Positions 3,001 through 44,995 of a DNA stretch of 64,000 nt are shown in pieces. The translations under genes were made by a program, and so were the position numbers. The DNA is from Planctomycetota bacterium. Lineage in GTDB: Bacteria; Planctomycetota; Phycisphaerae; Phycisphaerales; UBA1924. Where the stretch lies: assembly GCA_018242625.1 (NCBI GenBank), contig JAFEBO010000009.1, positions 1 to 64,000 of the forward strand. The letters are read 5' to 3'. Within the stretch, counting starts at the first letter, position 1, and every line of letters starts with the position of its first letter. Below the pieces are notes generated by a model. The model was given only the letters and a program-made list of their open reading frames with translations. It was not told the DNA's origin and did no database searches.

Positions 3001-3992
3001 AGCGCGGTGCCGCCCCCCGCGTCGCCCGAGACATCCACATCAGCACCGGTCAGCGCAACGTTTTGACCCGTGATTTCAACGCGGCCGCCCTTTTCTCCGG
3101 CGTCCTTCCCCGAAGCGTCGAGCCGACCGGCCACGCGCACTTCGCCGTGCTTGCCGCCGTCGATCTTGATCGAACGTGCGACCACACGGCCGGTGTTGAC
3201 CACCGCCATGCCGTAAATGTCGCCGGCGGCCATGAGCGTGCGACCCTTGGCAGCCTCGATGACGCCGTCGTTCCGCACACCCTCAGGACGGGCCACGCCG
3301 TCGCCCGAGATCCGGGCATAAATCCTTCCGCCCGATTCGCCAACCAGCACGTCATTGCCGGCGGCGAGGACGATCGTGCCCTGCGGGGCGATGATCTGGC
3401 CGTAGTTGGCCACGTGCTGGCCGATGAGCTGCACCGTGCCGCCCTTCGCGACCTCGATCTGCCCGTGGTTGACCACGTTGCCGCTCAGGTTGGTGAAGTG
3501 GTCACGCCCCTGCAGGAAGTCCTGGTCCGAAAGCTGACCGGCCGCGGCCGCAAAGCTGCCGCAGTTGATGACCGCGCCGTTGCCGAAAATCACACCGGCC
3601 GGATTGACGAAGTACACATGGCCGTTGGCCATGAGCGTGCCTTCGATGCGGGTCGGCGCCGAGCCGTCGATCCGGTTCAGCACCCGCGAATCCGCGCCGG
3701 GCTGGATGAACTTCACCCACTGGCCCCAGGCGATATCGAAAGACGAATAACTGATGATCGCCTTGCCCGAAGTCGTGATGACCCAGTTGTTGCCGACCTT
3801 CTGGAAGGCGGCGTTGCCGTAGGTGACCCGCGGGTTCACGGGCCCGCCCGCGCGGGCTGAAGCAAGCAGCAGCAGCGCCCCAAGCGTGGCGCCGACCCAC
3901 GAGAGATCCCGCCGCCTCGCGCGCGCCGAAATCACACCCCCCGCGGACTGGGCGAGGGTTCGGGCTTGCGAATTGGATCGTTTCCTCTTCAT
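1..3992 (-). CDS. TpsA-like filamentous haemagglutinin family exoprotein (3' end outside window)
   Basis: Large secreted beta-helix protein, the cargo half of a two-partner secretion system. The reading frame is open from ATG at 3992 to the window edge, about 1330 residues with no stop. The first ~45 residues are basic followed by a hydrophobic stretch (GALLLLASARA), as in an extended signal peptide. A TPS (haemagglutination activity) domain follows: F128-VNPAGVIFGNG is the family hallmark that normally reads NPNGVxFG. Beyond ~residue 300 come Gly/Ser/Ala/Thr-rich beta-helix repeats, with recurring elements such as LDSGAxGPFS and GGGLTR. The TpsB partner lies 264 bp upstream on the same strand. 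That leader contains only a weak 6-bp hairpin and no riboswitch I can identify. Secretion across the outer membrane is inferred from the family. The ligand or function of the passenger is unknown. Confidence 0.85.
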   Translation of the reverse strand, partial: MKRKRSNSQARTLAQSAGGVISARARRRDLSWVGATLGALLLLASARAGGPVNPRVTYGNAAFQKVGNNWVITTSGKAIISYSSFDIAWGQWVKFIQPGADSRVLNRIDGSAPTRIEGTLMANGHVYFVNPAGVIFGNGAVINCGSFAAAAGQLSDQDFLQGRDHFTNLSGNVVNHGQIEVAKGGTVQLIGQHVANYGQIIAPQGTIVLAAGNDVLVGESGGRIYARISGDGVARPEGVRNDGVIEAAKGRTLMAAGDIYGMAVVNTGRVVARSIKIDGGKHGEVRVAGRLDASGKDAGEKGGRVEITGQNVALTGADVDVSGDAGGGTALIGGGREGKGPLANAEALYVDSASTINADAITSGNGGTIVLYSKNSTRTGGTLTARGGLHSGNGGFIETSGGWLAVSGSPNTAARALLGKGGQWLIDPLNLDVIAGPSVDVSGPPVFTPTSTTGFLSVTDLLAALSSNSVVTLKTTGTVGAGTGLIRFQTMLDLGSMAGTHTLNVFSAGGIEINAAIKASTTGDALNLNLTAAGNVTIASGVEVLLNSGTFTSSGVDFSGGKLISAGGGGVWLNHTGDISLGSVTTLAAAPGSTSLWVRGTSFKSTGTLKTIGGNIDIQTSAGGVDIGGGPGVVVDAGSGDISIRAKDTLVSSAPITGNNISLFSGKDATISANIIGTGVLDIRAGRDGLGVLAFTGAGPALNLQGSTISLAAGNSAIPGSTVRFARSVNLTSTLKSTSISAGAGLIDIQGGVTVAQTNDATLTMTADDVNLAGSLNSVVGGRLRFATGTSSQNISLGGSGPGALILSAVELANIGGGFTTLDLIKTGQSGNVSIDSALSMARAMNVLLGSGAFALNSSLTLTGGTSSFSNNGRTLVGPGSVTLSASSAFFGGLVDASGAGANFRVSSPGLVNFVNSIGAGSALASLNVDGGGLTRVRNLVRAGSATFANATEIATNTTFSGGTVSFLSSLDSGAGGPFSATFLGGIGGTNVSFLGGVGQTRALSSLLTVGNATVAGNVRTTGSQTFGSNLNVTGASDFLAGGSWSVLGATSLAQSATVNASTVFFSGAVTSSAGRDLSVSSPGLITFASDVGLGGALRNLTVNGGGLTRITGTLNLTGAGQGQFFNATELLSDVLLTGGSFTFAQALDSGAAGPFSLVATGPGTMSFATDVGAGRALRSIDTSAAFLTQVGGNVFTTQNQAYSQLRLTGAAGNRLFDSTGGDILFSGAVGALTSNIGLAVDTPGLVTFSSTVGSGVPGAGIVASINRTGGGLTILKGNTDSAGTQSFDGDVLFDGPITANAGGLFSVQGASRLGGDVSILASSVDLLGA

Positions 3993-4256: not shown

Positions 4257-6293
4257 TCAATACAGGACGGTCAGGATGAAATTGACGCGGCTATACCCGC
4301 TGTTGACGGGCTCCTGACCCTGAATCCCGCGGAGCGCTACGCCCCAGTCCACACGAATACTGAGATTCTGCTGGAACTGAAGCTCGAGCCCCACTCCCGT
4401 GCCGAGCATCGTCGCGTTGCTCTCGTAGGGCTCCTTCTGGCTATTGACGGTGCGCCCGACATCCACAAAGGCGCGGAAGATGAGGTCCCAGTCGGCGCGG
4501 CCGTAAGGCTGCTGGGGCGCGAAACGGAAGGGCTTGTCGCGGAACTTTGTGGTGTTGGGGTCGCGGGGCGCGAGAATGCGCGGAAAATGGAAGCGATACT
4601 CGGCCGTGGCGAGAAAGACTGAATCGCCGGCCGAAGCCGATTCGGGATAGCCGCGCACGCTGTAGACGCCGCCGGCAACCTGCTCGATATTTGGGATAAC
4701 CCGGCGATCAAAGGCGTACTGCCCTCGCGTCGAGAGGAAAATCTCGTTGGCGAGGGTCATATTGGGACTGGGCTTGGTGCCGGGAGGGATCACCCCGTCT
4801 GCGTGCCCGTTGATCAGGGGCTCCAGATAGAAGCTGTGCTGGACATCCCACTTAAAGAGGAGCCACGCGCTGCTGGGGTTCAAGCGTCCCAGGTTCGCCA
4901 TCTGCGGAGCGGTGACGCCGGTCACAAACGGGGTCATCCCCTCGAATCCGCCGTAGGCACGCGTGGTTGTGACATCGGAGTCCCGCGAAAGCGTGAGTCC
5001 TCCGTAGGGCGAGAAGATGGCGGCGTTTCCCGGCTGGTCCACCGCCTCGTTGTTCACGGTGATGACGTCAAATCGCCCCCCCACGCTCGCCTCGAGAAAC
5101 CACTCCCGCTGCTGGAGGAGCAGTTGGGCCACCTCACCGCCGATTGTGACGTCGTTACCGGTGAAGTTTTCGCCCGCAAGCCCGACGTCGGCGGCGGTGT
5201 ACTCGTTGGCTCCGGCGTAGGGCCGGAGCACAAAGCCGCTGTCTCCGAGCGGCCGGTCATAGCTTGCGTTGAGGGCGTTGACCTGGTCGAACGCGCTGGT
5301 TATGAAGTCCAGCCGGAGAGTGTCGTCGTGCCCGGATATCTGGCTGTTCACGTATCCGACGCGCTCGCGCCACTCGTTGGTCTGTTCGGTTCCGGTGTTG
5401 GAGACCTGGGCGTAGAGCGACCAGGGCCGCGATTCGCTGACGAGGTAGTCAAGGACCACTTCGCCCGAATCCTTTGTGGGGCCAAGCGCGACATCGACGC
5501 GTCTGGCCGGGTGACGGTTCTGGCGGATCGCATAGTTGTCGAGTTTGTCCTTGCGGAGCAGATCGCCCTTCTGGAGCGGGCTGTTCTCGCGGAGGCTCTT
5601 GTGGATCGGGTTGTTGATCCGCTCGCCATCGTCACCAACTCGATCGCCGGAAGCGACGCTGCGCACTTCGTTGACCACGCCTGTCCAGATCATGAGACGG
5701 AGATCGGTGCGTTCCTGATCGGTCTCCGCTCGAAGATCATCCGCTGTTACTTCATCGATGTCCCTCCCGTCGGGAACGCTGAAGAGCCCGATCAGGTTGC
5801 GCCGCGCGAGCTCGGACACAATTGCCGCGTTCACTCTCTGGATGGCGCTGTAGTAAAACCTCGCTCCCCCGGTGTTGATTCCTCCGAAGGTGTCTCCCAC
5901 CCGGATCACAACCTTTGGAACGCCGTCGCGAGGCGCGATGTATCCCTGTTTCGTGAGGCCGAGTTCAACGGGGAGCAGCTCCAGTTCACTCAGGGGAGGA
6001 AGCCCCGGGTGGGGCTTGCGATATTCGAGGACAAACCTGCGGACCTTGTAGAACTTCTCGTTGGGATCCGTCACGACGTCCGGAAGGTTGTCCTCATCCA
6101 CCGGCAGAGCGAGCGTCGGGGGGATCGGCGTCAGTTCCGGTCCGGAGGCCTTCTCGGCCGGTGCCGGCAGTTCGCTTCGCGAAGGGGAGGCACGGGGCGG
6201 CGAGGGCAACTCGGCCGCGACAACGGCAGACGCCATCGCACAGGCCATCAGGATGGCGCTTCGCTTACCCGGAGTTGTTCGGCAACCCGCCAT
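4257..6293 (-). CDS. TpsB-like outer-membrane transporter (ShlB/FhaC/HecB family)
   Basis: 678 residues. Predicted 16-strand Omp85-superfamily barrel that secretes the adjacent TpsA protein. It has an N-terminal signal peptide (KRSAILMACAMASAVVAA), a Pro-rich linker, a POTRA-like region around residues 75-200, then a C-terminal barrel. V546-RGY is the conserved L6-loop motif of Omp85 proteins. FVDVGR occurs near the last strands, and the chain ends in an aliphatic/aromatic strand (FILTVLY) typical of outer-membrane barrels. The ATG immediately follows the stop codon of the TagF-like gene with no spacer, so translational coupling and one operon with the T6SS-like genes are likely. A start at the internal Met of MACAM would shorten the signal peptide and is less convincing. 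Confidence 0.85.
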   Translation of the reverse strand: MAGCRTTPGKRSAILMACAMASAVVAAELPSPPRASPSRSELPAPAEKASGPELTPIPPTLALPVDEDNLPDVVTDPNEKFYKVRRFVLEYRKPHPGLPPLSELELLPVELGLTKQGYIAPRDGVPKVVIRVGDTFGGINTGGARFYYSAIQRVNAAIVSELARRNLIGLFSVPDGRDIDEVTADDLRAETDQERTDLRLMIWTGVVNEVRSVASGDRVGDDGERINNPIHKSLRENSPLQKGDLLRKDKLDNYAIRQNRHPARRVDVALGPTKDSGEVVLDYLVSESRPWSLYAQVSNTGTEQTNEWRERVGYVNSQISGHDDTLRLDFITSAFDQVNALNASYDRPLGDSGFVLRPYAGANEYTAADVGLAGENFTGNDVTIGGEVAQLLLQQREWFLEASVGGRFDVITVNNEAVDQPGNAAIFSPYGGLTLSRDSDVTTTRAYGGFEGMTPFVTGVTAPQMANLGRLNPSSAWLLFKWDVQHSFYLEPLINGHADGVIPPGTKPSPNMTLANEIFLSTRGQYAFDRRVIPNIEQVAGGVYSVRGYPESASAGDSVFLATAEYRFHFPRILAPRDPNTTKFRDKPFRFAPQQPYGRADWDLIFRAFVDVGRTVNSQKEPYESNATMLGTGVGLELQFQQNLSIRVDWGVALRGIQGQEPVNSGYSRVNFILTVLY

Positions 6294-7280
6294 TTATCCG
6301 GCACGCCCCCCCTCGTTCTGACGCCACAGCCCGACTCGGGAACGGACGCGATCGGCAAACTCGGCAGGTATTGAAAATGGAACGTCGCTTGTAAGAGGCA
6401 CCGCCGTCAGCGGAGCTTTCAGGCAGAACAGCTCCGTGGCGCTGACCCGCCCGAAAAGCAGGTCGACCCAGCCTCCTTCGACCGCCTCGATCGCCAGCAT
6501 GCCCTCATCCAGCCCCTGCGGCCGTCCCAGCAAATCCAGAGATGCGGCGCTCCAGGCCCAGGCGCTCCCGCCGACTCCAAGCCCTTCCATCCTTCTTGCC
6601 CGCAGGTGCACTCCCCGGGAAATATGGGTGGATTCCTTCTTGATCGCCGGCTCGGCCTCCCTGTGAAGGGCGTAGGCAACGCGCTCGAGACCCAGGGCGT
6701 GTTCTGGATGCGCCGAGGCATCCATTGCCATGCCGGCGCGGCAGATCCTGTCGAAGCGCTCGTCGGGCGGGCTCAGCATCGCGGAGGCCTGCGCTTTCAA
6801 TGCCTCACTCTCGCGCATGAAAAGGGCGCGGACCGACTGCGCATCGCGCTCCGAACGGCAACCCTCCATGGCTCGCGTAACGGTCTCGGCGGCCCGGGCG
6901 CTGATCTTCGCGGGATCAAGTCCGCGTGCGTGAACGCAGGCGATCATCGGGTACTTCGATCTGCCGCGCCCGTCGGAACTGGCCCACATCCTGCCGTAGA
7001 CAAATTCGTCGCGCCGGAACCGCCAGAGAAACGCGTGATCGAAACGTTCGACGCGGGCGGGCAGTTTTTCCCATGCTCCGCTGTCAATGTTCCCGGCGAT
7101 GCCTTCGGAATAGAGCAGGCGCCGGACCTCGACGAGCCGGTCGGTGGTCAGGCCCATGTCCTGCATGTGGTCGTCCCATCCGGGATGCTTGCCGAACAGG
7201 CAGAGCTGGGCGAGGGGCTCCCCGCCGACGCCGGGCCCGGCGCTCAATCCGCCCAGAAATTGAGTGATTTTTTTGAGCAT
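6294..7280 (-). CDS. TagF-like type VI secretion-associated protein
   Basis: 328 residues, soluble. The N-terminal half carries FGKHPGWDDH and, about 85 residues on, SSDGRGRSKYPM. These correspond in order to the 'FGKxPxxGDF' and 'SxDxxGRxxPL' signatures of TagF N-terminal domains. TagF proteins are post-translational negative regulators of T6SS assembly, acting with or independently of the threonine phosphorylation pathway. The C-terminal half (about residues 180-328) is not recognisable. The gene lies 25 bp downstream of the TssM-like gene and abuts the TpsB gene, so it links the secretion-like cluster to the two-partner pair. The assignment rests on motif resemblance and context. A structure prediction would be the real test. 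Confidence 0.55.
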   Translation of the reverse strand: MLKKITQFLGGLSAGPGVGGEPLAQLCLFGKHPGWDDHMQDMGLTTDRLVEVRRLLYSEGIAGNIDSGAWEKLPARVERFDHAFLWRFRRDEFVYGRMWASSDGRGRSKYPMIACVHARGLDPAKISARAAETVTRAMEGCRSERDAQSVRALFMRESEALKAQASAMLSPPDERFDRICRAGMAMDASAHPEHALGLERVAYALHREAEPAIKKESTHISRGVHLRARRMEGLGVGGSAWAWSAASLDLLGRPQGLDEGMLAIEAVEGGWVDLLFGRVSATELFCLKAPLTAVPLTSDVPFSIPAEFADRVRSRVGLWRQNEGGRAG

Positions 7281-7305
7281 CCGTGCAAACCGATGCCGCC
7301 ACCAA

Positions 7306-10300
7306 CTACTTGGGCCAGGAGGTCGCGCCCGGCCAGTCTCCCGCCGGGGGCATCGCTGAAGAGAACGTCACATTCATCCAGAGGTGAAACGTCTGCTTGG
7401 AAGCCGGCTCCAGGACGGGGAGCGGCACAACCCAGGCGTTTCCGCCCGGGGCCGCGGCGTGAGCACCGGGGAAAAGTGCAACGACGGCGGCGGTCCACGG
7501 CCCGGGAATCCGGGCTTCGCCGGCCGGGGCGCTGTCGCCGATATTCCGATAGAACCTGAAGGTGACACCCGGACCGGGGCTGGTGATCGAGAGCTGCTTG
7601 ACGAGTTCCGAAGCACGGGCCGCATCAAGCCCCCGCAGACCGATGCGGGGTCCGGCGGCCTCGCCATCACGGACGACATCCATCTGTTCGAACCATTCGA
7701 CCGCGTCGCCGCTGCTCCCGATGTTCAAGCTTGACAGCGGAGGGAGCGCTTCCGCATCGCGGCGGCTCCAGACGGGGACCATCGACACAATGACCGGCTG
7801 CTTCTGGTCGAGCCCGTTGGCGAGAGCGGCCGCAACCGTCCGGACTTTTTCGACTCGCTGACGCTGCGCGTCGGTCAGGACCTGCCTGCCGCGAAGATCT
7901 CCGAAGAGAGCCTGGACCTCTCCGGTGAGCTCCACGGTTCCCGCGGGAGGAGCCGAGAGCAGTTCCGCGGCAGCAAGCGCCCTGAGCAGCGCCGTTTCAT
8001 CGAGAGGTTTGGCGACATCGCCGGTGCGCGAGAGAGGCCACTTGTCCGAAGCCCGGAGCACGTCGAGTGCTTCTCGAGCGGACGGCTCGTATTTGGCCCT
8101 CAGGGCTCGCAGCACGCCGACCGCAATGCTCTCGCCGAGCACGTCGTGGGGCTTGGCGCAGCCCAGCACCGCCAGCGATTCCACCTTGCTCTGCCCGGCG
8201 CCGGGCGCCAGCAGCGCCGCCCGGGCGGTTTGCCAGTCGAGCGCACCCAGCGGGGCAAGATTTTTCATCGCGTCACCCCGGCGGCGGACGGCGCTCTCGT
8301 CGGAAAGCTGTTCGATGGAAGCCCGGAGCTTCTCGATGGCGCTCTTGACTTCCGGGAGGTTCTTCACGCTCGCAGGAAGGGGCTCAACGGCATCGACCGC
8401 TGCGCTCGCGAGCTGCCGGAGCGCGGGCCCGGAATCGGCCGCCCGGTCCAGGCCCCCGGTCATCGCCGGTCCGAGAGAATCCCAGCTCTTGAGGCTCTCG
8501 CTGAGCGACATCTCTCGTACGAGTCCGCTGGCCCAGACACCCGCGTAACTCCGGGCATATTCGTCGAGTCCTTTGCCGCGCGCACGGACCTCCGCGAGCA
8601 GGCGATCCTTGTCGATCACCGCTCCGCCGGAAGAAAGCTCGCTCTCGGCGCGCGTCAGCCCGCCCAGAACGATTCCGGCGGCCGCGGGCGAATAGGGCAC
8701 GGGTATCTCACCACCCTTGAGATCGGTGAGCGGAACGGTCGGCTTGGTGTACGGCCGAACACCCTTCACCCTGGCGATCGATTCCACGGCCTTGAGTACG
8801 CCTTCGGCGGTGTCCGGAAGCTTGGCAAGGAAGCCGGAGAGAACTTCTGTGGCGCCCGCCGCTCTGCCCGTGCGGGCGAGTGCTTTGGCCGCACCGCCAA
8901 CCAACTTGCGGGCCTGCGCGTCCGCGAGGCCACGCACGATCGAGTCGATGTCTGCGCTGGCACGCTCGAGTGTTGTGTCGAGCCGGCGGAAGCGATCCGA
9001 AAGACCGTACCAGTCGGCGTCGCCCGAGGCGGACTGACGGTCGAACAGGTCCTGCGCGCCACGCTTGTAGGCGTCGAGGTGGACGCGATAAGCAAGCTCG
9101 GATTCGCGCCCGCCGGGTCCGGGGGCCGCGAGCGGCATGACCGAAGCAAGAGCCGCGTCGATCTTCTGGGCCGCTCCGTCCACGAGCTTCTCCGCGTTCT
9201 CCCGCCGGGCCGCGATCTGGCGCCGGATGTCGTCGATCGGGGGCGGCTCGGTCGAATCTCCCTCGCCCTGGGTCGGCAGCTGCGAGAGCAGGAGCGCGTA
9301 TTCACCGTTGATCTGATCGAGTGCCTCGCGCTTGGTGCGCCCGATGGCGCCGCTGAGCTCCGAGGGGGCCAACTTCAGTTCCGCCAGCAGCGCATCGCAC
9401 TTGCCGGCGGCGGCGGCCATGCCGTCGATCCGGCTCCGGGCCTGGCTTGAGAACGATTCGAGTTCCGCGTTCGTCTGGACGAGCGGGGTGGGATTTGCAT
9501 CGGCGTCGGGCATGCCGCGCAGCGACATCAGCTTGGCTTCCTCGGAGCGGAACTGCGCGAGCGACTCGGCAACCAGAGAAAGCTTGCCCATGGCGAACTC
9601 GTCGCCGCGAGCACGCTCGCCCCAGGCCCCGGCAAACCGCTGAAGCCCTTCGCCGATCGAACGGACCGAGGCGACATCACCGACCTTGAGGCTCGCGGGC
9701 GGCCACGGGAGCTTGCCCGAGGAAGGGGCCGCTCCGAGGCCGTAGGTGGATTCGACCGCGTCCTGCCACTTGCTGAGATCTTCGGGCGCGGGCTTGCCGC
9801 CGAGCACGTAGGAAAAGAGCGCCTTGAGGTCGATCAGATTCGCCCGGGGCCCGCCGGCGGGCGCCAGGTTGAGCTTGAGCGTTTCGAGCCTGAGCAGTTC
9901 GGCCAGCGCCGCGGTTGCCCGCGAATCCCAGGCTTTGTCTTCACGCAGCCGCTGCCGCGCGCCTTCGACCAGCGGAATGAGAACCGACTTCTCCAGAACA
10001 GCCGCGCTCGCCTGCTGCTGCTCCTGCTTGAATCCGCCTCCGGCTCCAACCACAACCGCGGCGGGGGAGAAGACAACGGGGACTTTGACCGGCTCGGAGG
10101 CGCGCTGCGTTGCCAGTTCGGGAAGCTTGGCGCGTGGGGCCACCGAATCGGGAAGGCCGATGTCGGAACGATCGCCGAGGTAGACCCAGTTGGGCGCCTC
10201 GTATCGAACGATGGCGGTATCGCCGCGGGTGAGCGCCGTGCCCGTCGGTGCTGCCTGGGTGTCGCCCTCGGGCTTCTCGGCCTGAAGCACTCCCATCGCG

Positions 10301-11754
10301 ACCCCCACCGACTTCCAGAAATCGCGCGGCCCTTCGATCGACCGGCCCAGCTGACTCTGCCCGTAAATGGCAAAGCCGAGCACCGCGACCGCCGCGGCAA
10401 CGGCCGAGCCGAGCAAAGCCAGGCGGCGCCGATTCTGCTCCTGACGCACGTTGGTTGCGCGCGTCACCAGACCCTTTTCGCGGAAGGCCTTCGAAAGGAA
10501 AACATCGCGGAGGAAGAAGCTCCGCTCCTTCTCCCAGATTTTTCCGCCGGGCAGGCTGTCGAGCGTGAGACCGAGTGCTTTGGCCAGGTCCTGATCGAGA
10601 GCTTCGCCCTCGCGCATCGAGCTTGTGAAGTAGATGCCTCGGAGGAAGAGCGGCTTCGGGCTCCACTCACCCCCCGCGAAGATCGTTTCGAGATAGCGTC
10701 GCAGGCGCGGCACGACCTTTTCGAGATTCTCGGGCAGGGCGTACAGCTCATCGACTTCGTCGATGCGCTTGCCGGTGCCCTGGGCGTACTTCGTGGTATC
10801 GGCGACGAGCGCAAGGCGCCGGGCGAGCAGTCGCTGCTTGACCTGCCTCATGTGCTCCTCGACGAGTTCGATGCGCAGCGGCGCATCGAGATTGTCGGGG
10901 TTGCTCCAGCCGAGCAACTGGTGTTGCAGGTTGGGGTCGTGGATGTTGTCGAAGAACTCGCGGAAACCCGCGATCAGATCGCACTTGGTGATGATGACAA
11001 AGACCGGGAAGCGGACATCGAGCGTCCGCTGAATCGTGTCCAGCTGCTGCGCGATCCGGCCGGCCTTGCTCTCGATTTCCTCGGCCTTGTCCCGGATCAG
11101 GCTGTCGGCGCCGATCACCAGGAACATGCCGTTCACCGGCTCGTTGGGCCTGCTCCGCTTGAGCAGCCGCAAAAACTCCGCCCATTCCCCTCCGTCGCCG
11201 CCGTCCGCCGTGCCCGCCGCTTCCATGAACATGCGCCCGGCCGTGTCGAGCACGACGGCGTGGTTTGTGAACCACCAGTGCATGTTCAAGGTACCGCCGG
11301 CACCCTGCAGGTAGTCCTGCAGGCCGGGAGGGAATCCCACGTTGCAGTGACGAAGCGCTTCGGTCTTGCCGGAACCCGCGGGCCCGACAAGCAGATACCA
11401 GGGCAGGCTGTACAGGTCCTTGCCCGCGGCGCGGAACTTTTCCACTCCGTCGTCAAACTTGCGGCGCAGATCGTCCAGCCGTGCCCGCTGGGCGGGATCG
11501 GCGATCACCGGAGCCATCCCGGCGGCGTTCTTGATTAGATCAGCAAAGGGCGCTCCCTTTGCCTTGTCCCGCACCTGGATGAACCACTGAAAGACGCCGA
11601 TCAGCAGCGCAACGACCACCGCGCCGGCACCGAGCACCGCGAGGAATGTTCCGTCGCGCGGGATCAGCTTCAGAAGCGCGGAGTAATCTCCGGCCGCGAA
11701 AAGCCTCGTCGCGCCGACGCCGCTCACGCACATCCCAAGAAGCAGCGAGTTCAC
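7306..11754 (-). CDS. TssM/IcmF-like inner-membrane ATPase-fold protein
   Basis: 1482 residues. IcmF/TssM proteins span the inner membrane and anchor the T6SS membrane complex. The N-terminal hydrophobic segments lie near residues 36-58. A cytoplasmic NTPase domain follows with Walker A GPAGSGKT (124-131), DTAG (170-173) and the base-recognition-like TKCD (256-259). A further transmembrane helix is near 435-457. A ~1000-residue, Ala/Glu-rich periplasmic region follows and ends in a beta-rich tail. The start overlaps the TssL-like stop by 4 bp (11751-11754), so the two are translationally coupled. It is longer than proteobacterial TssM (about 1100-1300). The family call is strong; participation in a true contractile T6SS is not shown, because no tube or sheath genes are in the window. 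Confidence 0.85.
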   Translation of the reverse strand: MNSLLLGMCVSGVGATRLFAAGDYSALLKLIPRDGTFLAVLGAGAVVVALLIGVFQWFIQVRDKAKGAPFADLIKNAAGMAPVIADPAQRARLDDLRRKFDDGVEKFRAAGKDLYSLPWYLLVGPAGSGKTEALRHCNVGFPPGLQDYLQGAGGTLNMHWWFTNHAVVLDTAGRMFMEAAGTADGGDGGEWAEFLRLLKRSRPNEPVNGMFLVIGADSLIRDKAEEIESKAGRIAQQLDTIQRTLDVRFPVFVIITKCDLIAGFREFFDNIHDPNLQHQLLGWSNPDNLDAPLRIELVEEHMRQVKQRLLARRLALVADTTKYAQGTGKRIDEVDELYALPENLEKVVPRLRRYLETIFAGGEWSPKPLFLRGIYFTSSMREGEALDQDLAKALGLTLDSLPGGKIWEKERSFFLRDVFLSKAFREKGLVTRATNVRQEQNRRRLALLGSAVAAAVAVLGFAIYGQSQLGRSIEGPRDFWKSVGVAMGVLQAEKPEGDTQAAPTGTALTRGDTAIVRYEAPNWVYLGDRSDIGLPDSVAPRAKLPELATQRASEPVKVPVVFSPAAVVVGAGGGFKQEQQQASAAVLEKSVLIPLVEGARQRLREDKAWDSRATAALAELLRLETLKLNLAPAGGPRANLIDLKALFSYVLGGKPAPEDLSKWQDAVESTYGLGAAPSSGKLPWPPASLKVGDVASVRSIGEGLQRFAGAWGERARGDEFAMGKLSLVAESLAQFRSEEAKLMSLRGMPDADANPTPLVQTNAELESFSSQARSRIDGMAAAAGKCDALLAELKLAPSELSGAIGRTKREALDQINGEYALLLSQLPTQGEGDSTEPPPIDDIRRQIAARRENAEKLVDGAAQKIDAALASVMPLAAPGPGGRESELAYRVHLDAYKRGAQDLFDRQSASGDADWYGLSDRFRRLDTTLERASADIDSIVRGLADAQARKLVGGAAKALARTGRAAGATEVLSGFLAKLPDTAEGVLKAVESIARVKGVRPYTKPTVPLTDLKGGEIPVPYSPAAAGIVLGGLTRAESELSSGGAVIDKDRLLAEVRARGKGLDEYARSYAGVWASGLVREMSLSESLKSWDSLGPAMTGGLDRAADSGPALRQLASAAVDAVEPLPASVKNLPEVKSAIEKLRASIEQLSDESAVRRRGDAMKNLAPLGALDWQTARAALLAPGAGQSKVESLAVLGCAKPHDVLGESIAVGVLRALRAKYEPSAREALDVLRASDKWPLSRTGDVAKPLDETALLRALAAAELLSAPPAGTVELTGEVQALFGDLRGRQVLTDAQRQRVEKVRTVAAALANGLDQKQPVIVSMVPVWSRRDAEALPPLSSLNIGSSGDAVEWFEQMDVVRDGEAAGPRIGLRGLDAARASELVKQLSITSPGPGVTFRFYRNIGDSAPAGEARIPGPWTAAVVALFPGAHAAAPGGNAWVVPLPVLEPASKQTFHLWMNVTFSSAMPPAGDWPGATSWPK

Positions 11755-12449
11755 TTGCCACCTCCCGTACCGGCGGAGGCGGAGTCCTTGATCTGCTGCA
11801 GCGTCGTTCGCAGTTCACCGGATGAGCGTGCGAACATCATGAAATAGGCCGCCACAACAACCGCGATCATGCCGACCGCCGCGATCGCCACGCTCGTCAG
11901 GCTGCGGACCGGGGGCAACGCGAGCTTTCGCACGTCCACATTCCTGTACGCCTCGGGGCAGACGCGTTCGGTCTGATCGATCTCCGCCAGCCCGCCCAGG
12001 CGCGGCAGCACCTCGGCGAGTTTTTTGGCCCCCGTCTCGCGGTTGCCGCCGTACGCGCCGGGAAGGCCGAGCCCCAGGATCTCGGCAAGAACCGCCAGTC
12101 GCTCGCTCGAGCCCGGCGTGTCGTCGGCGATCGCCCGCTCCAGGGCTTCTTCGAAAACTTTGACGGTCGATTCCACGCCACGCTCGGGCGCGAGAGGCTT
12201 CCAGACTCCCGCGAAGCCGGCCCGCATCGAGCGGACCATCGCATCAATAAAGACCAGCACCGAGGGCTCCACCGCCTCAAAGCCCCGCATCAGTTCCGGA
12301 TCCGCGGCGGCTTTGGCCCGCGCATCATTCACCGCGGAACGCAGTTCGGATCGCACGACCGAAAGGTCGATCGCGGCCCCCTTCCGGGCCAGCCTGTTCA
12401 GGCGGCAGACCTGCTGCAACACCGGCTCTACCAGTTCCAGGAGCGTCAT
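11751..12449 (-). CDS. TssL/DotU-like inner-membrane protein
   Basis: 232 residues with an all-helical cytoplasmic N-terminal domain that opens LLELVEPVLQQVCRL, as in the DotU/TssL fold. A single C-terminal transmembrane helix lies near residues 184-206 (VAIAAVGMIAVVVAAYFMM), followed by a short periplasmic tail. This C-tail-anchored layout is characteristic of TssL/DotU. In T6SS and T4bSS, TssL/DotU pairs with TssM/IcmF, the product of the next gene, which overlaps it by 4 bp. No peptidoglycan-binding extension is present. The upstream gene also overlaps by 4 bp (12446-12449). Family call from topology, the opening motif and neighbour; sequence identity to proteobacterial TssL appears low. 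Confidence 0.7.
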   Translation of the reverse strand: MTLLELVEPVLQQVCRLNRLARKGAAIDLSVVRSELRSAVNDARAKAAADPELMRGFEAVEPSVLVFIDAMVRSMRAGFAGVWKPLAPERGVESTVKVFEEALERAIADDTPGSSERLAVLAEILGLGLPGAYGGNRETGAKKLAEVLPRLGGLAEIDQTERVCPEAYRNVDVRKLALPPVRSLTSVAIAAVGMIAVVVAAYFMMFARSSGELRTTLQQIKDSASAGTGGGK

Positions 12450-13129
12450 GAACTTCCTCCGACCTCACGCTGCGACTGCGACAGGCTGTCCTTCTCCGCG
12501 CTCGCGAAGGTCCCTGCAAGGCTTTCCGCAAATTCCGCCACCGCCCGCAGGATTTCTGCTTCGATGTTCGCTTCGGCGGCTCCCGAAGTCTCACCCATCA
12601 ACTCTTTGTATTTCCGCCACGAGGCGGCGTCCGTGTTGCCCAGCCGGGCCGCCCCGGTCCTGCCGTTTTCCGCCCCCGCAACAGCCTCGATCGTGTCGAC
12701 ACCGAATCTCATCACATGGCGGCTCGCGTATCGCTCCGCGGCCTGCGCGATGGCGGCGATCAGGGCCGCGGTCATCCGCCGGGTCGACGCCAGAGCCCGG
12801 TCGGTTTCAACAAGCGCCTTCTCGCGGCGTTCCTGATCACCCTCGGAAAGCACACGCGCCAGGGCCTGACCGAAGGCTCCTTCGCGGGTAAGGCCCGAAT
12901 CCGGCGCGATCTTCTTGCTCCACGCGTTCCAGACGAGCTGATCGAGCTGCGTGAGTGTCTCGGCCATTTCGGCGGCCGCGAAGAGGTCGAGCTTGGCCCG
13001 GTCGAGCTGTCCCGCGGCCTCGTCCAGCGCCGCGAGCTGTTCGGGCGAAGCCCCTTCGCGGGCACGAAGGAGGGCGGCCTCCGCCTGGAGGAGCCTGGTG
13101 TGCCATGCTGTTGCTGTCCGGTTCGCCAA
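12446..13129 (-). CDS. Helical protein of unknown function in the T6SS-like operon
   Basis: 227 residues from a TTG start at 13129. It is Ala/Glu-rich and predicted almost entirely alpha-helical, with no signal peptide or transmembrane segment. I do not recognise the family. The TTG was chosen because AAGGA lies about 8 bp upstream and the sequence starts ANRTATAWHT. The in-frame extension to 13270 reads like non-coding DNA. The stop overlaps the TssL-like start by 4 bp, so it is the first gene of the downstream operon and probably a cytoplasmic component or regulator of the membrane complex. That role is inferred from position only. Confidence 0.65.
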   Translation of the reverse strand: MANRTATAWHTRLLQAEAALLRAREGASPEQLAALDEAAGQLDRAKLDLFAAAEMAETLTQLDQLVWNAWSKKIAPDSGLTREGAFGQALARVLSEGDQERREKALVETDRALASTRRMTAALIAAIAQAAERYASRHVMRFGVDTIEAVAGAENGRTGAARLGNTDAASWRKYKELMGETSGAAEANIEAEILRAVAEFAESLAGTFASAEKDSLSQSQREVGGSS

Positions 13130-13467
13130 GTCTTTTCCTTCCCCACTCCCTCTGCCGTTCGTTTGCCGCCCCACAAGGCCAATAACAAACCCGCCGAGCA
13201 TACCGGCCCGGCTCCACCCATGACGCCGCCCCCGCCCCGGAAGCGGATCGAAGGCTCGTCCTTCGTCCATACGTCGGCCCGCGGTCCGTGCAGGCGTTAC
13301 AGACGGTGCGGCCCGCGCGATTCTTGCGCGAATCGTGGGTCAAAGCTGGTTCTGGGCAAACCGTATTCGATGGTTTTCCTGAGGGCCATTTCCGGCCTTC
13401 GAGGCATTTGAGGTTGCGCGCACGGCCCGCCGTGCACATTGCCCCGCGAGGGGCGGGGAGCTCGGAG
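13130..13467. other. Divergent intergenic region
   Basis: About 340 bases between the first gene of the TssL-TssM operon (minus) and a small lipoprotein gene (plus). It must hold promoters for both directions, but I see no convincing sigma-70 hexamers, operator or riboswitch. The only clear sites are the ribosome-binding sequences at each end. Confidence 0.4.
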
Positions 13468-13791
13468 ATGCAGACGGTTCAACGCCGTCCTTTTTCTTTT
13501 TTGGGCACGCCGCTTCTGGGAGTGATCCTCCTGGGAGGTGCGGCGGTCCTGGGGGGCTGTTCCTCGGCTCGCACGGTCCAGGCGACCGGCCCTGCCTCCG
13601 GGCTTGCCGCCGGCGATGCCTTCGCTGGAGTCGTCACGCCGCGGGGCACGATGGCGATGGCCGCGGGTGATCAGCTGGGAATGGCCGCGTACGCACAGGA
13701 TTACCAGCTCGCACAGAGCAACAAGGCCGAATCGACGCGGTACGCCCGGCGCCCGGGCCTCAAGCCGGCCGTGGCCCTCGCGGACGAGTAG
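13468..13791 (+). CDS. Small secreted lipoprotein
   Basis: 107 residues from ATG at 13468, preceded by GGGGAGCTCGGAG as ribosome-binding site. Upstream in-frame Met codons read through non-coding sequence and were rejected. It has a signal peptide with a hydrophobic core (LLGVILLGGAAVLGG) and a lipobox LGGC, with lipidated Cys near residue 29. The rest is a short Ala/Gly/Gln-rich chain without a recognised domain. It is the only plus-strand gene between 1 and 21.9 kb. It stops 5 bp before the convergent end of the pseudokinase-FGE gene, so it splits the T6SS-like cluster into two transcription units. T6SS membrane complexes contain a lipoprotein (TssJ). This protein seems too short and simple for that, but an envelope role in the cluster is possible. 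Confidence 0.7.
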   Translation: MQTVQRRPFSFLGTPLLGVILLGGAAVLGGCSSARTVQATGPASGLAAGDAFAGVVTPRGTMAMAAGDQLGMAAYAQDYQLAQSNKAESTRYARRPGLKPAVALADE

Positions 13792-13796
13792 AAGCC

Positions 13797-16700
13797 TTAT
13801 TTATGGTCAGCGGCAGGGCCCAGGAACACCGCCTGTTCCAGAGCCCGCGCGGTCAGGACCGCGGGGGGCTCTTTCGGCCTGCCGTTGCCGCCTTCGGAAA
13901 ATGCCAGGCGGAAACCGACATCGGAGTATCCCTTGCGGGCTTCGCGGATACTGGGGTTTGCGTACGGCTCATCGACTTCGTAGGGCTTGCTGTCGCGCAA
14001 GGTGATTGCGGAAAGAGCCGATCCGCCAATCACCCGCCACTTCAGTTCCGGGTTGTCGATCGCCGCCGTCACGGCTTCAACGTTGGGTTCGAGCGAGGCG
14101 ATCGCGTCGGGATTGCCCTCGAGCACTATCTCGGAGACGTTGCCTACGAGGTGGGACCACCCCTGACTATCCCGCAGAACGGGGGCGAACCAGAGATAGC
14201 CGTCGTTGTAGGTGAGAGCCGAATCATCGGCCGCGTTGACGTAGAGCAACTTTCCGTCGGGCTGCTTTTCTGCGGGCTTGAGACCGCGGGGCCAGAAAAT
14301 GCCCGCGTGCGGCCATTCCTTGGTGGGGATGTCGAGATCCTTGACGTAGTCGAATTGCATCGTCCAGTTCTTGTCTCGCCGGTTGGACTTGTCGGAGACC
14401 TTTTCCAGGCCTCCCGCATCATCAACCGCGGCTCTCCACTCCTCCACCGTGGGAAGCCGGGCGCCCATCAATCGTGACAAAAGGAGTGCGGCGTCCGGAG
14501 AGATCCAGTCCATTGGGCTGTCGTAGGCGGGGGGCGCAATCGTTCCCAGGGCTGGCGCGTAGTAAGGCTTGTCGTGGAGGTCTTCCAGCACCTGCATCCA
14601 GCCGGAAGACTGATTGCGGGAAGAAATATTCATCAGAACAAGCTTGCGCCGTGAATCCCACGTCCACGTGGCGGGCCCGTACCGCGGATCGGGGCCATCG
14701 TCCCACCAGCGCAGTGTGAGACGGAGCTGTTCCCAGAGTGAGGAAGAGCGATAGACCTCGACCGCTCCCATGACCATCCCCACAGAGACCTCGTGGGTGC
14801 TCACGTAGGTCGCGATCGGGCCGCCCGAGCCCATGATTTTGACGGGGCGGAACTCGAGTTTCACCGGGGGCTGGCCCGGGGCCATGCGGCCCGGCGGAAG
14901 ATCGAGCGAGTAGATGTACCGATCGCCCTCCCGCGAGGCTTTCCACACTTGTTTCTTGTCGAGCACAATCGATGCAGGCCCGTTCTTCAGCGGGTCAAAG
15001 GCCGGCCGCGCTTCTCGCTCGGCAATGCCCGATAGAGCTTTCTGCAGGTTCGAAACTGCGGAATTGCCTCCGAGCCCCAGCGACGCTGAGCCTTCCTGAA
15101 GCCGGCGGAGCAGATCCGATGCGAACCGCGTCTGGGCGGAGAGCGCGGCCGCATCGGAGCCCGCGCCCACCCCTCTCTGAGTCTCCTTGGTCAGAAAATC
15201 CCGGGCCTGATTGCCGAGCTCCCAGACCAACGCGTTGTAGCGCGCGCTGGGCGCCAGGCCGTCGGCCTCGGAAGGCGTGACGCCGAAAAGACCCGCATCG
15301 GTCAGGCCCCGCTCGATGCCGGCTCGATCGGATCCGGGGCGCTGGTTCATGTAGGCGACCCACATGCGCGCTGCCCGGCGGCGGACGCTTTCTGTGACGG
15401 ACTCCCTTGCTTCCGGCGGTATGGCGATGTCGATGATCGCGGGCAATGTGCGGGAGATCGCCTGGGAAGCCTGCGTGAAAGACACGTTGTCCGAAGGCCA
15501 GCCCAGCTCGCCGAGTCGCGTCCAGGCGGCAAGAGCAACAGGCGCGGGCGATCCGGGGGCCAGCCAGCGGGCGATCTGAGCGGCGTCCGCCGAGGCGCCG
15601 ATCGCGCGGATTTCCCTGATCGCTCCCCAACCGTCGGGAAGGACCGGACCCAACACGGCGATGTCGGGATCGGACTCGACCCGGCGGACGAGTTCGGCGA
15701 GATGGGAGTCTTTTTCGGCCCCCTGAAATTCCTGGCCGCGGAAGAGCAACTGCCCGGCCTGCGAAAGGTCCTTCAATGTCTGCGTGGAGCGCGAAAGCCA
15801 GAGCTGATACTGCGCGCCCGCGCCGGCGATGTCGGGCGTGCCGGTCGAGAGCGCTCGAGCGAAAATCGCGTCGCGTGCCTGCGAGACCGCGATCTTCCAG
15901 GATTCGGCGTTTCCGCCCTGTATTGGGCACGGAACCTTTTCGGGAAGCTGCAGATCCAGCGCGTGCAGCGTTTCGCGAACGCCGCGCAACTTTCCGAACG
16001 CTTCACGCTTGGTCGATGCCGATCTCGCCGCAGAGAGCGCCTGCTCCCAGGCTCCGGTCAGCGCCTTGCTGGAGAACTGCCCTGGGTCCTGGCGCGCGAT
16101 CGCCTCGCCGAGCGTGAGCATCGCGGTCGTGAACGCATCCGCAGAATCTCGCTCGAGCGAATCGATCTCCTGATCGAGTTTGCGGCTGAGGTCTTCCGCG
16201 GCGGTCCGGTTGCGGTTGCTCCAGGCGGTCCCCTTGAGCGTCTGCACGTCTTTGCCGATCTGCGCAAGCCGCTGGTCGAACTCGGCCGGGAGCAGCGTGA
16301 GTTCGCGACCCGTCTTTTCCAGCCCCTGCAGCCGCTCGCCGAAAGGCTTGAGCGTTTCGGTCGTCTTTGCCGCCTTTTCGAGCACCGGCACGCGCGGATC
16401 GGGGGCGTCCACAGCCGCGAAGTCGGGCCTGGCGGCTTCTTCGCGCCAGGCCACGAGCTGCGCGAGCCCCGCTTGGCCGGAAGCAATTTCTTTCAGGCGC
16501 GCCGACTCACGGAAACCGGCGCGATCCCAGCCGGCGATCTCGCCTTTCTCAAAGGCCATCGCGGCGCTTGCCGCCCCGTCCACACGCTCGAGCGAAGTGC
16601 GGAGAGCCTGCAGCGCGGGCTCACCCGCAGCCGCGGCGGCAAGAGCCTTGTCCGTCTCAGCCCGGGCGATCAGGTCGAGCTTGGAAAGCACCGGATCGCC

Positions 16701-18242
16701 GCTGGCCTTTTCGGATTCCACGATCTTGGTGATCGCGTCCCAGATTCCATCGATTCGAGCGGCGTTTTCGATGGCGCTCTGAGCGGCAAGCACCGCGGGC
16801 ACGATGTCACCCGAGCGTTCGACCGGGGGCGCCTCGGTATTGGCTTCCTTGACAATGACAACCGGGAGCGCCGCCGTGACACCTCCCGCGGCGTTCAAAA
16901 GCGGAGGCGTCGCCTTGCCCCACCCGCGAGATTCCCAGGCACCGGCGATTTCCCGCAGGCGGGCCAGTTCGGTCCAGCCCAGCAGCTGATCCCGGGCTTT
17001 GTCGATCCGAGAGAGCGATGCATCACCGGCGATGATTTTCTCGCCCTGGATGGCGTCCCCGGGGTTATCTCGGAGGTCCAGAAGGCTCGCGCCCGAACCC
17101 GCGCCCGCAACCTCGCGCGGATCTCGAACCGCTGGGTCGTTGAGCAGGTTGGAGAGCTCGCGGATTGTGCTGGTCGGGGGCGCGCCGGCCGCCAGAGCGG
17201 AGATCTGCCCGCGTGCGGCGTGCAGATCCCCGAACCAGAGCCGCCAGCGTTCGACAAAGGCCTGCCACTTGGCGAGACGCGCCCGTTCTTCGAGTTGATC
17301 GGCGCTCAGAACCACCGCCTCGCGGACCGGAGTGCGGAGCATCAGGTAGCCGGCGCCGGCCACCAGCACGACGGCAACGATTCCCCCGGCGAACATCGCC
17401 TGCCTCTTGGGGAACGGCTTATGGGGCCGGTGTTCCAGAACCTGCTGGCGGATCTGGGCCAGGGTCGGGACGGCGCCCGCATCGGCGACTGCTGTGCCCG
17501 CCGCCATCAGCCGGTTTGCGAGGTCGAACCACCAGCGCCCGTCTCCCACTGTTTCCCAGCCATCGTTCCATGTGGCCGACCAGCCGCTGACCGCCTTGAG
17601 CGGCGGCCGCTTATGGAGCACCATCTCATAAATGAGGCGCCCGACAGCCCGGAGGTCGGCCACGTGCGCGTCGGTCCCAAGCCGCTCGCGGGATTCGAGT
17701 TCCGTAAGCACGACCGCCGACCCGTCGGCCAGTCGGGCGTCTCCCGGGCCGGCGGCGAGCATCACGGTGGAACTGGAGAGGTTTCCCCATTGGCGCGCCG
17801 AGTTCCGCTCCAGTTCGATCAGGCCGTCGAGCACGCCGAGCACGATGCCCCGCAGTTCCACGGAGGTGAGCACGTACTGCGCGAGGACAAGGCGTTCAAC
17901 GGTCCAGGCGAGCGAAGGACGGACGACAAAGGCGCCGCGGCCGTCGTCCATCAGCCCAAAGTCGGCGATGATCGACCAGCGCTTGGCGCCGGCGCCCACG
18001 AGCTGAGCCTGATCGCGGGCGGCGCCCACAAGACGGCGCGCTTCTTCATCGAGGCCCGCCCGAGGCAGCCACGGCACAACGACGCTTGGTCCCACGGCGG
18101 TTGCCAGGAACCGGTCGCCGAATGGCTTGGCGGCCTTGAGCGAGGTCGATGAAATTGTGGCCGGGAGTGCGGCTTCCCACCGGGCGCAGAACCCGGTGCC
18201 GGCAACTTCTCGGCGAGCTTCGTAGGACCCGAACGAAGGCAT
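13797..18242 (-). CDS. Pseudokinase - transmembrane - helical - FGE/SUMF1-like giant protein
   Basis: 1481 residues. Residues ~1-270 resemble a Hanks-type kinase fold. The catalytic loop reads QWGNLSSSTVML in place of HRDLKPSN, the DFG position reads ADG, and no VAIK lysine is evident, so it is predicted to be catalytically dead. A transmembrane helix follows at about 281-302 (GGIVAVVLVAGAGYLML). Next comes a ~800-residue Ala/Glu-rich helical periplasmic region. The C-terminal ~320 residues carry formylglycine-generating-enzyme-like signatures: GARLPTVEEWRAA, LVGNVSEIV, GGSAL and DVGFRLAF. Proteobacterial T6SS loci often encode PpkA-type kinases and FGE-domain proteins. Here both ideas sit in one polypeptide beside TssL/TssM-like genes. 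A structural or sensory role in envelope assembly is inferred. Sulfatase maturation is unlikely, as no sulfatase gene is nearby. Confidence 0.7.
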   Translation of the reverse strand: MPSFGSYEARREVAGTGFCARWEAALPATISSTSLKAAKPFGDRFLATAVGPSVVVPWLPRAGLDEEARRLVGAARDQAQLVGAGAKRWSIIADFGLMDDGRGAFVVRPSLAWTVERLVLAQYVLTSVELRGIVLGVLDGLIELERNSARQWGNLSSSTVMLAAGPGDARLADGSAVVLTELESRERLGTDAHVADLRAVGRLIYEMVLHKRPPLKAVSGWSATWNDGWETVGDGRWWFDLANRLMAAGTAVADAGAVPTLAQIRQQVLEHRPHKPFPKRQAMFAGGIVAVVLVAGAGYLMLRTPVREAVVLSADQLEERARLAKWQAFVERWRLWFGDLHAARGQISALAAGAPPTSTIRELSNLLNDPAVRDPREVAGAGSGASLLDLRDNPGDAIQGEKIIAGDASLSRIDKARDQLLGWTELARLREIAGAWESRGWGKATPPLLNAAGGVTAALPVVIVKEANTEAPPVERSGDIVPAVLAAQSAIENAARIDGIWDAITKIVESEKASGDPVLSKLDLIARAETDKALAAAAAGEPALQALRTSLERVDGAASAAMAFEKGEIAGWDRAGFRESARLKEIASGQAGLAQLVAWREEAARPDFAAVDAPDPRVPVLEKAAKTTETLKPFGERLQGLEKTGRELTLLPAEFDQRLAQIGKDVQTLKGTAWSNRNRTAAEDLSRKLDQEIDSLERDSADAFTTAMLTLGEAIARQDPGQFSSKALTGAWEQALSAARSASTKREAFGKLRGVRETLHALDLQLPEKVPCPIQGGNAESWKIAVSQARDAIFARALSTGTPDIAGAGAQYQLWLSRSTQTLKDLSQAGQLLFRGQEFQGAEKDSHLAELVRRVESDPDIAVLGPVLPDGWGAIREIRAIGASADAAQIARWLAPGSPAPVALAAWTRLGELGWPSDNVSFTQASQAISRTLPAIIDIAIPPEARESVTESVRRRAARMWVAYMNQRPGSDRAGIERGLTDAGLFGVTPSEADGLAPSARYNALVWELGNQARDFLTKETQRGVGAGSDAAALSAQTRFASDLLRRLQEGSASLGLGGNSAVSNLQKALSGIAEREARPAFDPLKNGPASIVLDKKQVWKASREGDRYIYSLDLPPGRMAPGQPPVKLEFRPVKIMGSGGPIATYVSTHEVSVGMVMGAVEVYRSSSLWEQLRLTLRWWDDGPDPRYGPATWTWDSRRKLVLMNISSRNQSSGWMQVLEDLHDKPYYAPALGTIAPPAYDSPMDWISPDAALLLSRLMGARLPTVEEWRAAVDDAGGLEKVSDKSNRRDKNWTMQFDYVKDLDIPTKEWPHAGIFWPRGLKPAEKQPDGKLLYVNAADDSALTYNDGYLWFAPVLRDSQGWSHLVGNVSEIVLEGNPDAIASLEPNVEAVTAAIDNPELKWRVIGGSALSAITLRDSKPYEVDEPYANPSIREARKGYSDVGFRLAFSEGGNGRPKEPPAVLTARALEQAVFLGPAADHK

Positions 18243-18298
18243 GTGGGAATTGTCCGCGAATTCCCGCCGCCGTGCAAATCAATCGGCGCAATTCGCTG

Positions 18299-18943
18299 TT
18301 ATTGTCCCGCGGGCAGCGCCCTGGCTTCGCGCAGTTTCAACCCGGCCGGAACGGCCTTCACGCCCGCGCGGTCGACTTCAAGGACCACCCCCTGACGCTT
18401 GACCGCGGCGGTGGTCACCAGGACCGCCCGCCGGTCCGGGCCCGGCGGCGCCGGCTCGGGGCGGGGCTCGGCCACGAACTGCGAGATCTCGCGTCCCTTC
18501 TCGTCAAAGACGGCGAAACGCTCGACATAGTTCTGCGGCTCACCTTCGGGAGCCGCCCAGGCCACGGCGGCGGCAGCGAAGACATATTGCTCCGAAAACA
18601 GGCTGTCGGTGGGGCCGATCGTCGCGATGCGCCGGTCCTGATTGAGGGGAATGTCGATACGCCGCACATCGGGTCGCGCGACATCGTCGGCTACGACCGC
18701 GGTGACATCGAGCGAGTCGCTGTGCATGAGCTCCTGGCTGACGCCGATGAGCCGAACCGTGACGGGCGGGAACTTGTTGTTCGCGGGGTCCCGCATCGCC
18801 TCTGAGTACATGATCGTGAGGCCGGGCTGATCGGGCCCCTTGGCGAGTTCGAATTTCTGCGGCAGATGCTCGTAGTCCACCCGGCAGCCCGAAACCGAGC
18901 ACAATGCCGCCAGCAATGTGGCCCCCAGCAACGGGCGATTCAT
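18299..18943 (-). CDS. Lipoprotein, possibly TssJ-like
   Basis: 214 residues from ATG at 18943 (MNRPLLGATLL). A TTG 33 bases earlier overlaps the ybaB stop and would break the signal peptide. The lipobox is SVSGC, with Cys at residue 20. The mature part is beta-rich. The element PVTVRLIGVSQEL around residues 60-72 resembles the first strand and loop of TssJ lipoproteins ('xPVxVRIYQL'). In T6SS, outer-membrane TssJ contacts the TssM periplasmic domain. The gene lies between ybaB and the pseudokinase-FGE gene on the same strand, in the cluster that contains TssL/TssM-like genes. The TssJ assignment is a hypothesis; the lipoprotein call is firm. Confidence 0.6.
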   Translation of the reverse strand: MNRPLLGATLLAALCSVSGCRVDYEHLPQKFELAKGPDQPGLTIMYSEAMRDPANNKFPPVTVRLIGVSQELMHSDSLDVTAVVADDVARPDVRRIDIPLNQDRRIATIGPTDSLFSEQYVFAAAAVAWAAPEGEPQNYVERFAVFDEKGREISQFVAEPRPEPAPPGPDRRAVLVTTAAVKRQGVVLEVDRAGVKAVPAGLKLREARALPAGQ

Positions 18944-44984: not shown

Positions 44985-44995
44985 TTGAGAATCAC

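Follow-up and report, generated by a model that had tools for sequence, protein, structure and literature searches.

A sheathless TssL–TssM locus derived from a type VI secretion system and carrying a two-partner secretion pair in Phycisphaerales

Work on the membrane complex of the type VI secretion system (T6SS) has treated it as the base at which a spear docks. What, then, does such a base do at a locus that encodes no spear? The question is raised by a stretch of 64,000 nucleotides from a Planctomycetota bacterium of the order Phycisphaerales (contig JAFEBO010000009.1, C12:1-64000), hereafter the window. One block of minus-strand genes in it encodes the membrane-complex proteins TssL and TssM together with a two-partner secretion (TPS) pair, TpsB and TpsA. 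The contig ends inside tpsA. We find that this sheathless locus is real and genus-wide, and that it is one of several independent reductions in which the same gene set was retained.

From 18.9 kb to the window start the block reads lipoprotein, pseudokinase-FGE protein, ORF274, TssL, TssM, TagF-like protein, TpsB and TpsA. The tssM/icmF gene (7306..11754, minus strand) encodes 1482 aa, with a P-loop domain, membrane segments and a periplasmic part of ~1000 aa. The protein carries the Walker A motif GPAGSGKT, DTAGR and TKCD, and it matches Pfam IcmF-related_N (3e-54) and TIGR03348 (2e-79, residues 47-461). The identity of TssM is secure for its cytoplasmic domain. The tssL/dotU gene (11751..12449, minus strand) encodes 232 aa with a C-terminal membrane anchor and matches PF09850 (DotU) at 1.1e-8, a model that each of the 31 aligned TssL proteins also matches. 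Its identity is likewise secure. Both hallmarks of a T6SS TssLM membrane complex, a TssM with an IcmF-type P-loop domain and a TssL/DotU with a C-terminal anchor, are thus present. The periplasmic part of TssM was modelled (predicted local distance difference test score, pLDDT, 84) and compared by VIA-align with TssM of the T6SS membrane complex in PDB 6hs7. The alignment is collinear over 395 residues, with a Z of 6.5 that lies below the tool's "clear" level, and the modelled resemblance is suggestive. Foldseek with the whole periplasmic part as query gave generic helical matches only, and searching the PDB with the TssM and TagF sequences gave nothing useful.

The second half of the locus is a TPS (type Vb) system. 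TpsB (4257..6293, minus strand, 678 aa) is an Omp85/ShlB-type TPS transporter (PF03865, 3.8e-8) and shares 38-44% identity with its positional counterparts in full T6SS clusters. The adjacent 5' part of tpsA (3..3992, minus strand; open reading frame open to 4193, likely ATG at 3992) encodes a giant TPS exoprotein with an N-terminal TPS domain (PF05860, 9.5e-29). Both identities are secure. TpsA ranges from ~1900 to 5200 aa. ORF274 and tssL overlap by 4 bp, as do tssL and tssM, and tagF abuts tpsB with no spacer. ORF274-TssL-TssM and TagF-TpsB are therefore likely to be co-translated, judging from gene spacing. A promoter and terminator scan gave the same counts as in shuffled sequences. The initial annotation had named a TssM/IcmF-like protein with a Walker A motif, a TssL/DotU-like protein with a C-tail anchor and a TpsB/TpsA pair, with TagF adjoining TpsB and TpsA next. 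All of this, apart from the name TagF, for which the match is weak, is borne out by the profile matches and by the exact adjacency of the genes.

Two observations on TpsA stand apart. A helical-looking C-terminal domain (Y.D...VT..RL...LGL(S/T)..E; L065:2913-3512 and relatives, alignment A6) has no good Pfam match. It was considered as a dedicated dock for TssM and rejected as specific, since it is common in genomes without TssM. In genomes G325 and G316 (L122, L286-L287) tpsA has moved or been inverted away and tpsB still lies beside tagF, a natural case useful for asking which partner is tied to TssM.

Could the sheath simply lie beyond the contig end? The initial annotation had pointed to the absence of sheath and tube genes from 64 kb. 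The contig runs on for only ~7 kb past the end of tssM before it cuts tpsA, and full-T6SS relatives carry their sheath genes on the far side of tpsA. That absence is therefore poor evidence as it was stated, and truncation was at first strongly suspected. We read the ends of the genome's other contigs to find the remainder of tpsA. The 3' part was found at G000:C7:3-3515; its product shares 62% identity with the C-terminal half of TpsA from three genomes of the genus. After tpsA, contig C7 continues with nuoN-M-L-K-J, pgsA, pgpA and comM (named by reading the protein sequences), the same gene order as in three same-genus genomes. C12 and C7 thus probably join within tpsA.

Whole-genome searches of eight genomes of the genus agree with this continuation. 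TssM was found in 7/8, and TssC, TssK and TssF each in 0/8. ClpV gave no match over the cut-off in these genomes, the matches below it being ClpB-like. Hcp gave no match in the window's own genome and weak off-locus Hcp-like matches in two other genomes of the genus. TssB, TssG, TssA and VgrG were not found in the loci read, VgrG being absent from the locus and its flanks, and no genome-wide search was made for these four. The sheath TssB/TssC, the baseplate proteins TssK and TssF, and the tube Hcp with the unfoldase ClpV, which would mark a T6SS, were thus not found within these scopes. The C7 continuation and the genus data rule out truncation as the cause of the missing sheath, and they uphold the absence first reported. 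The initial annotation had set a complete tss cluster with sheath genes elsewhere as one of its own refuting findings; TssC, TssK and TssF are found neither in the genome nor in the genus.

The arrangement extends well beyond the genus. Among 150 genomes of the family, TssM is present in 78 and TssC in 55, and TssK tracks TssC, not TssM. TssM occurs without TssC in 24 of the 78, representing 12 genera. The locus was read in all 24, with six-frame hidden Markov model labelling used for gene assignment in G216, G225 and G241. TssK is missing from between ORF274 and TssL in every one. None of TssA, TssB, TssC, Hcp, TagJ, TssF, TssG, ClpV or VgrG occurs in the stretches read, where the flank past tpsA is readable for >10 kb in about half of the loci and for little or nothing in G233, G294, G300 and G334. 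TpsB directly follows TagF in 23/24 loci, that of G216 continuing on a second contig; in G272 the contig stops after TagF. A synteny check proposed earlier thus gave a positive answer, with TssM-TagF-TpsB kept over 12 sheathless genera and many full-T6SS relatives. The closed chromosome CP054186.1 (Phycisphaeraceae bacterium H1_PLA1) is arranged alike and lacks TssC. From the class sample, five genomes negative for TssC (G021, G031, G047, G068 and G176) were left uncounted as fragmentary or as carrying another T6SS type.

Is the sheathless locus an independent invention or a reduced T6SS? Full T6SS clusters of Phycisphaerales begin with lipoprotein, pseudokinase-FGE protein, ORF274, TssK, TssL, TssM, TagF, TpsB and TpsA, and continue with TssA, TssB, TssC, Hcp, TagJ, TssF, TssG, ClpV and VgrG. 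The order is locally rearranged in G032 and G063, and TagF is in some full clusters fused to a second FGE-like part. The TPS pair therefore already sits inside complete clusters, between TagF and TssA, which makes the window locus a reduced T6SS and not an independent invention. In Verrucomicrobiota a T6SS of this kind has TssA immediately behind TagF, and TPS is absent. Compared with the full cluster, the window locus has lost TssK, TssA, TssB, TssC, Hcp, TagJ/TssE, TssF, TssG, ClpV and VgrG, and has retained TssL, TssM, TagF, the pseudokinase-FGE protein, ORF274 and the TPS pair. The initial annotation had proposed a distinct envelope machine coupled to TPS. Its synteny and its lack of a sheath hold, and the TPS pair as a feature specific to sheathless loci does not.

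On a TssM tree of 51 rows, sheath state changes seven times. Five changes are forced by starred branches, and 7-8 are counted over bootstrap trees. With at least five well supported, the contractile machine was lost repeatedly and the same subset was kept. The counts themselves give no direction. Sheath states also differ within genera (G320 beside G259, G280 beside G302). Genomes with a sheath, and sheathless G320 and G225, have the N-terminal domain of ORF274, which is eroded in most other sheathless genomes. Loss of the sheath as the derived state is the better reading, because the outgroups are sheathed, because some losses fall within a genus and because of this domain pattern. Outside Phycisphaerales, an Opitutales genome (L271:1-14389) carries lipoprotein, pseudokinase-FGE protein, ORF274, TssL, TssM and TagF, with no TssK, TPS or TssC. 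Its next gene encodes a 1121-aa DUF748 (AsmA-like) envelope protein.

The retained genes show signs of constraint. Members of the window's genus are 58-91% identical in the proteins of the TssL/TssM/TPS locus, and the ratio of non-synonymous to synonymous differences (pN/pS) across them is low: 0.11-0.23 for TssL, 0.13-0.27 for TssM and 0.17-0.32 for TpsB, rough values, since pS approaches saturation in some of the comparisons. All 24 sheathless TssM proteins retain Walker A and DTAG, and nearly all retain TKxD. By plain identity, with no tree correction, the TssM cytoplasmic domain is equally conserved in sheathless and sheathed genomes. Judged by these substitution patterns, the retained subset is under purifying selection.

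How does the locus compare with known systems? Like the T6SS TssJ-TssL-TssM complex, it has homologous TssL and TssM, a TagF-like protein and a kinase-like/FGE-like control protein (compare PpkA/TagR), and its gene order is that of T6SS clusters in related Planctomycetota and Verrucomicrobiota. Unlike a T6SS, it is without TssK, TssA, TssB/C, Hcp, TssE/F/G, ClpV and VgrG, its kinase domain is without the catalytic Asp, and its TssJ counterpart is only a candidate. The TPS pair resembles type Vb systems (FhaC/FhaB, ShlB/ShlA) in its ShlB/Omp85-type TpsB, its TpsA with an N-terminal TPS domain and the adjacency of the two genes; it differs from them in being embedded in a T6SS-derived operon, abutting tagF. 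Relatives of TssM and TssL that work without a contractile sheath have a precedent in IcmF-DotU of the Legionella Dot/Icm type IVB system. The window TssM differs from these in matching the T6SS model TIGR03348 (2e-79) far better than the type IVB model NF038226 (9e-8), and a scan of the locus proteins found no Dot/Icm core gene. Type IV secretion systems were the setting of the first studies of IcmF and DotU (PMC2660368). The T6SSiii of Bacteroidota has a sheath without the classical trans-envelope complex (PMC4793230). It is the reverse case of the window locus and shows that a contractile machine can be parted from the membrane complex.

What might the base do for the TPS pair? We give roughly a 50% probability to the reading in which a sheathless trans-envelope complex of T6SS origin serves as anchor or gate for a giant TPS adhesin. 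TssL and TssM, with the lipoprotein in the place of TssJ, would continue to span the envelope as a scaffold. The scaffold's periplasmic arm would dock at TpsB, linking TssLM and TPS physically, and would hold, position or time the giant TpsA at the surface. The TssM nucleoside triphosphatase (NTPase), TagF and the pseudokinase-FGE protein would act as a switch. In a T6SS this switch would license firing; here it would license display or release of TpsA, or report its contact state inward. TpsA would cross the inner membrane by Sec, like known TPS proteins. In favour count the uniform gene content of the 24 sheathless loci, the TPS pair within complete T6SS clusters, the repeated losses, the constraint and retained motifs in the genes kept, the matching closed chromosome, and TpsB adjoining TagF despite relocation of TpsA (G325, G316). 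Several findings pull the other way. Six genomes that lack TssM (L272-L283: G212, G201, G224, G096, G119 and G209) have solo TpsB-TpsA pairs of this family, so TPS does not strictly need TssLM, and two of the six are nested among T6SS-linked pairs in a quick TpsB tree. The conserved TpsA C-terminal domain is found in 121/150 family genomes, many without TssM. TssM diverges faster than TpsB and TpsA in two sheathless clades. The Opitutales module, with DUF748 and without TPS, means that TPS is not the sole possible partner; it makes the TssLM-TagF-pseudokinase unit the common denominator and TPS its usual partner in Phycisphaerales. More tentatively, and at somewhat under even odds, the T6SS membrane complex freed from its tube may have become an NTP-controlled anchor or gate for TPS, several times in Phycisphaerales and a single time in Opitutales, there with DUF748 instead of TPS, which would make TssJLM a reusable envelope chassis.

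The solo pairs and the DUF748 neighbour in Opitutales equally feed a competing explanation, which we regard as possible and rather unlikely: the TssL-TssM-TagF-pseudokinase unit performs an independent envelope function, such as signalling or wall and envelope upkeep, and TPS is a neighbouring adhesin kept by operon inertia. TssL and TssM are indeed more constrained than TpsB and TpsA in the window's genus, whereas the opposite holds in two other sheathless clades, and inertia sits uneasily with TpsB adjoining TagF in 23/23 readable sheathless loci, even with TpsA moved. Could the TssM NTPase instead power TpsA export, as an energised two-partner secretion, the strong form of what the initial annotation proposed? 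The P-loop motifs retained in sheathless TssM, a cytoplasmic domain no less conserved than in full T6SS and the giant size of TpsA would fit. To our knowledge, however, known TPS requires no envelope NTPase, and same-family solo TPS exists without TssM; we consider powered export improbable. A decaying, functionless remnant of a disappearing T6SS would fit the several sheath losses, some of them recent (G320, G280), and the erosion of the ORF274 N-terminal domain after loss. Retention of the same subset in at least five losses, open frames, genus-wide low pN/pS and retained motifs make such a remnant very unlikely. Least probable of all is an unrecognised contractile or tube machine, encoded at some other place in the genome, that makes use of the complex. 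The weak off-locus Hcp-like matches in two same-genus genomes could hint at one, and the genome-wide searches did not cover TssB, TssG, VgrG or sheaths of the extracellular contractile injection system type; against this, TssC, TssK and TssF are 0/8 in the genus, ClpV has no match over the cut-off and Hcp none in the window's genome.

At least five lineages have thus dropped spear and baseplate and kept the base, the control proteins and the embedded two-partner adhesin, which suggests a second role, so far unstudied, for the retained base at the cell surface. The locus makes testable a function of TssJLM beyond baseplate docking, the role of the TssM NTPase without a baseplate, and the placing or gating of two-partner secretion by an inner-membrane machine. 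T6SS surveys that call systems by TssM/IcmF alone will count sheathless loci. A literature search, covering few subscription journals, found no description of TPS inside Planctomycetota T6SS clusters or of sheathless TssLM loci.

The remaining proteins of the block fill in the control side and the outer-membrane side. The TagF-like protein (6294..7280, minus strand, 328 aa) matches TIGR03373 with an E of 0.0047, under the cut-off. Its designation in the initial annotation is weak for this protein alone and gains from the family, where 8/20 aligned TagF members match TIGR03373 (best 1.2e-4) and no other model. The pseudokinase-FGE protein (13797..18242, minus strand, 1481 aa) consists of a pseudokinase, a membrane segment, a helical region and an FGE-like part, a layout like that of PpkA/TagR. 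Its gene is also present in relatives' clusters, where the catalytic loop reads HGNLKPxN and the catalytic Asp is lost. The FGE match is weak in the window protein and recurs, weakly, in relatives; loop and matches together back the name it was first given. ORF274 (12446..13270, minus strand) is a small conserved protein that directly precedes TssK in full clusters and here overlaps tssL. The lipoprotein (18299..18943, minus strand; lipobox VSGC) holds the position of the TssJ-like lipoprotein of full clusters and is a candidate TssJ. It is conserved in four other same-genus genomes and aligns weakly with the lipoproteins of full clusters by hhalign (probability 40%, E 3e-4). A structure model of the ORF225 lipoprotein was too poor to use (pLDDT 48), and Pfam and PDB searches with the related lipoprotein family gave nothing useful.

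Three further observations concern other loci. Two large Ser/Thr kinase-TPR proteins are encoded on the minus strand of the window (42324-45023 and 61252-63954) and have strong kinase matches, unlike the pseudokinase of the module. In G031 (L157-L158, C7:25001-65000) a divergent TssM lies midway along a 228-kb contig; the stretch read around it holds no further recognised T6SS gene, and the genome has no TssC. Finally, the records L210, L231, L262 and L251 bear the titles Leptolyngbya, Cyanobacteria, Acidimicrobiales and Variovorax and contain this planctomycete-type locus or its TagF; they are probably mislabelled metagenome bins.

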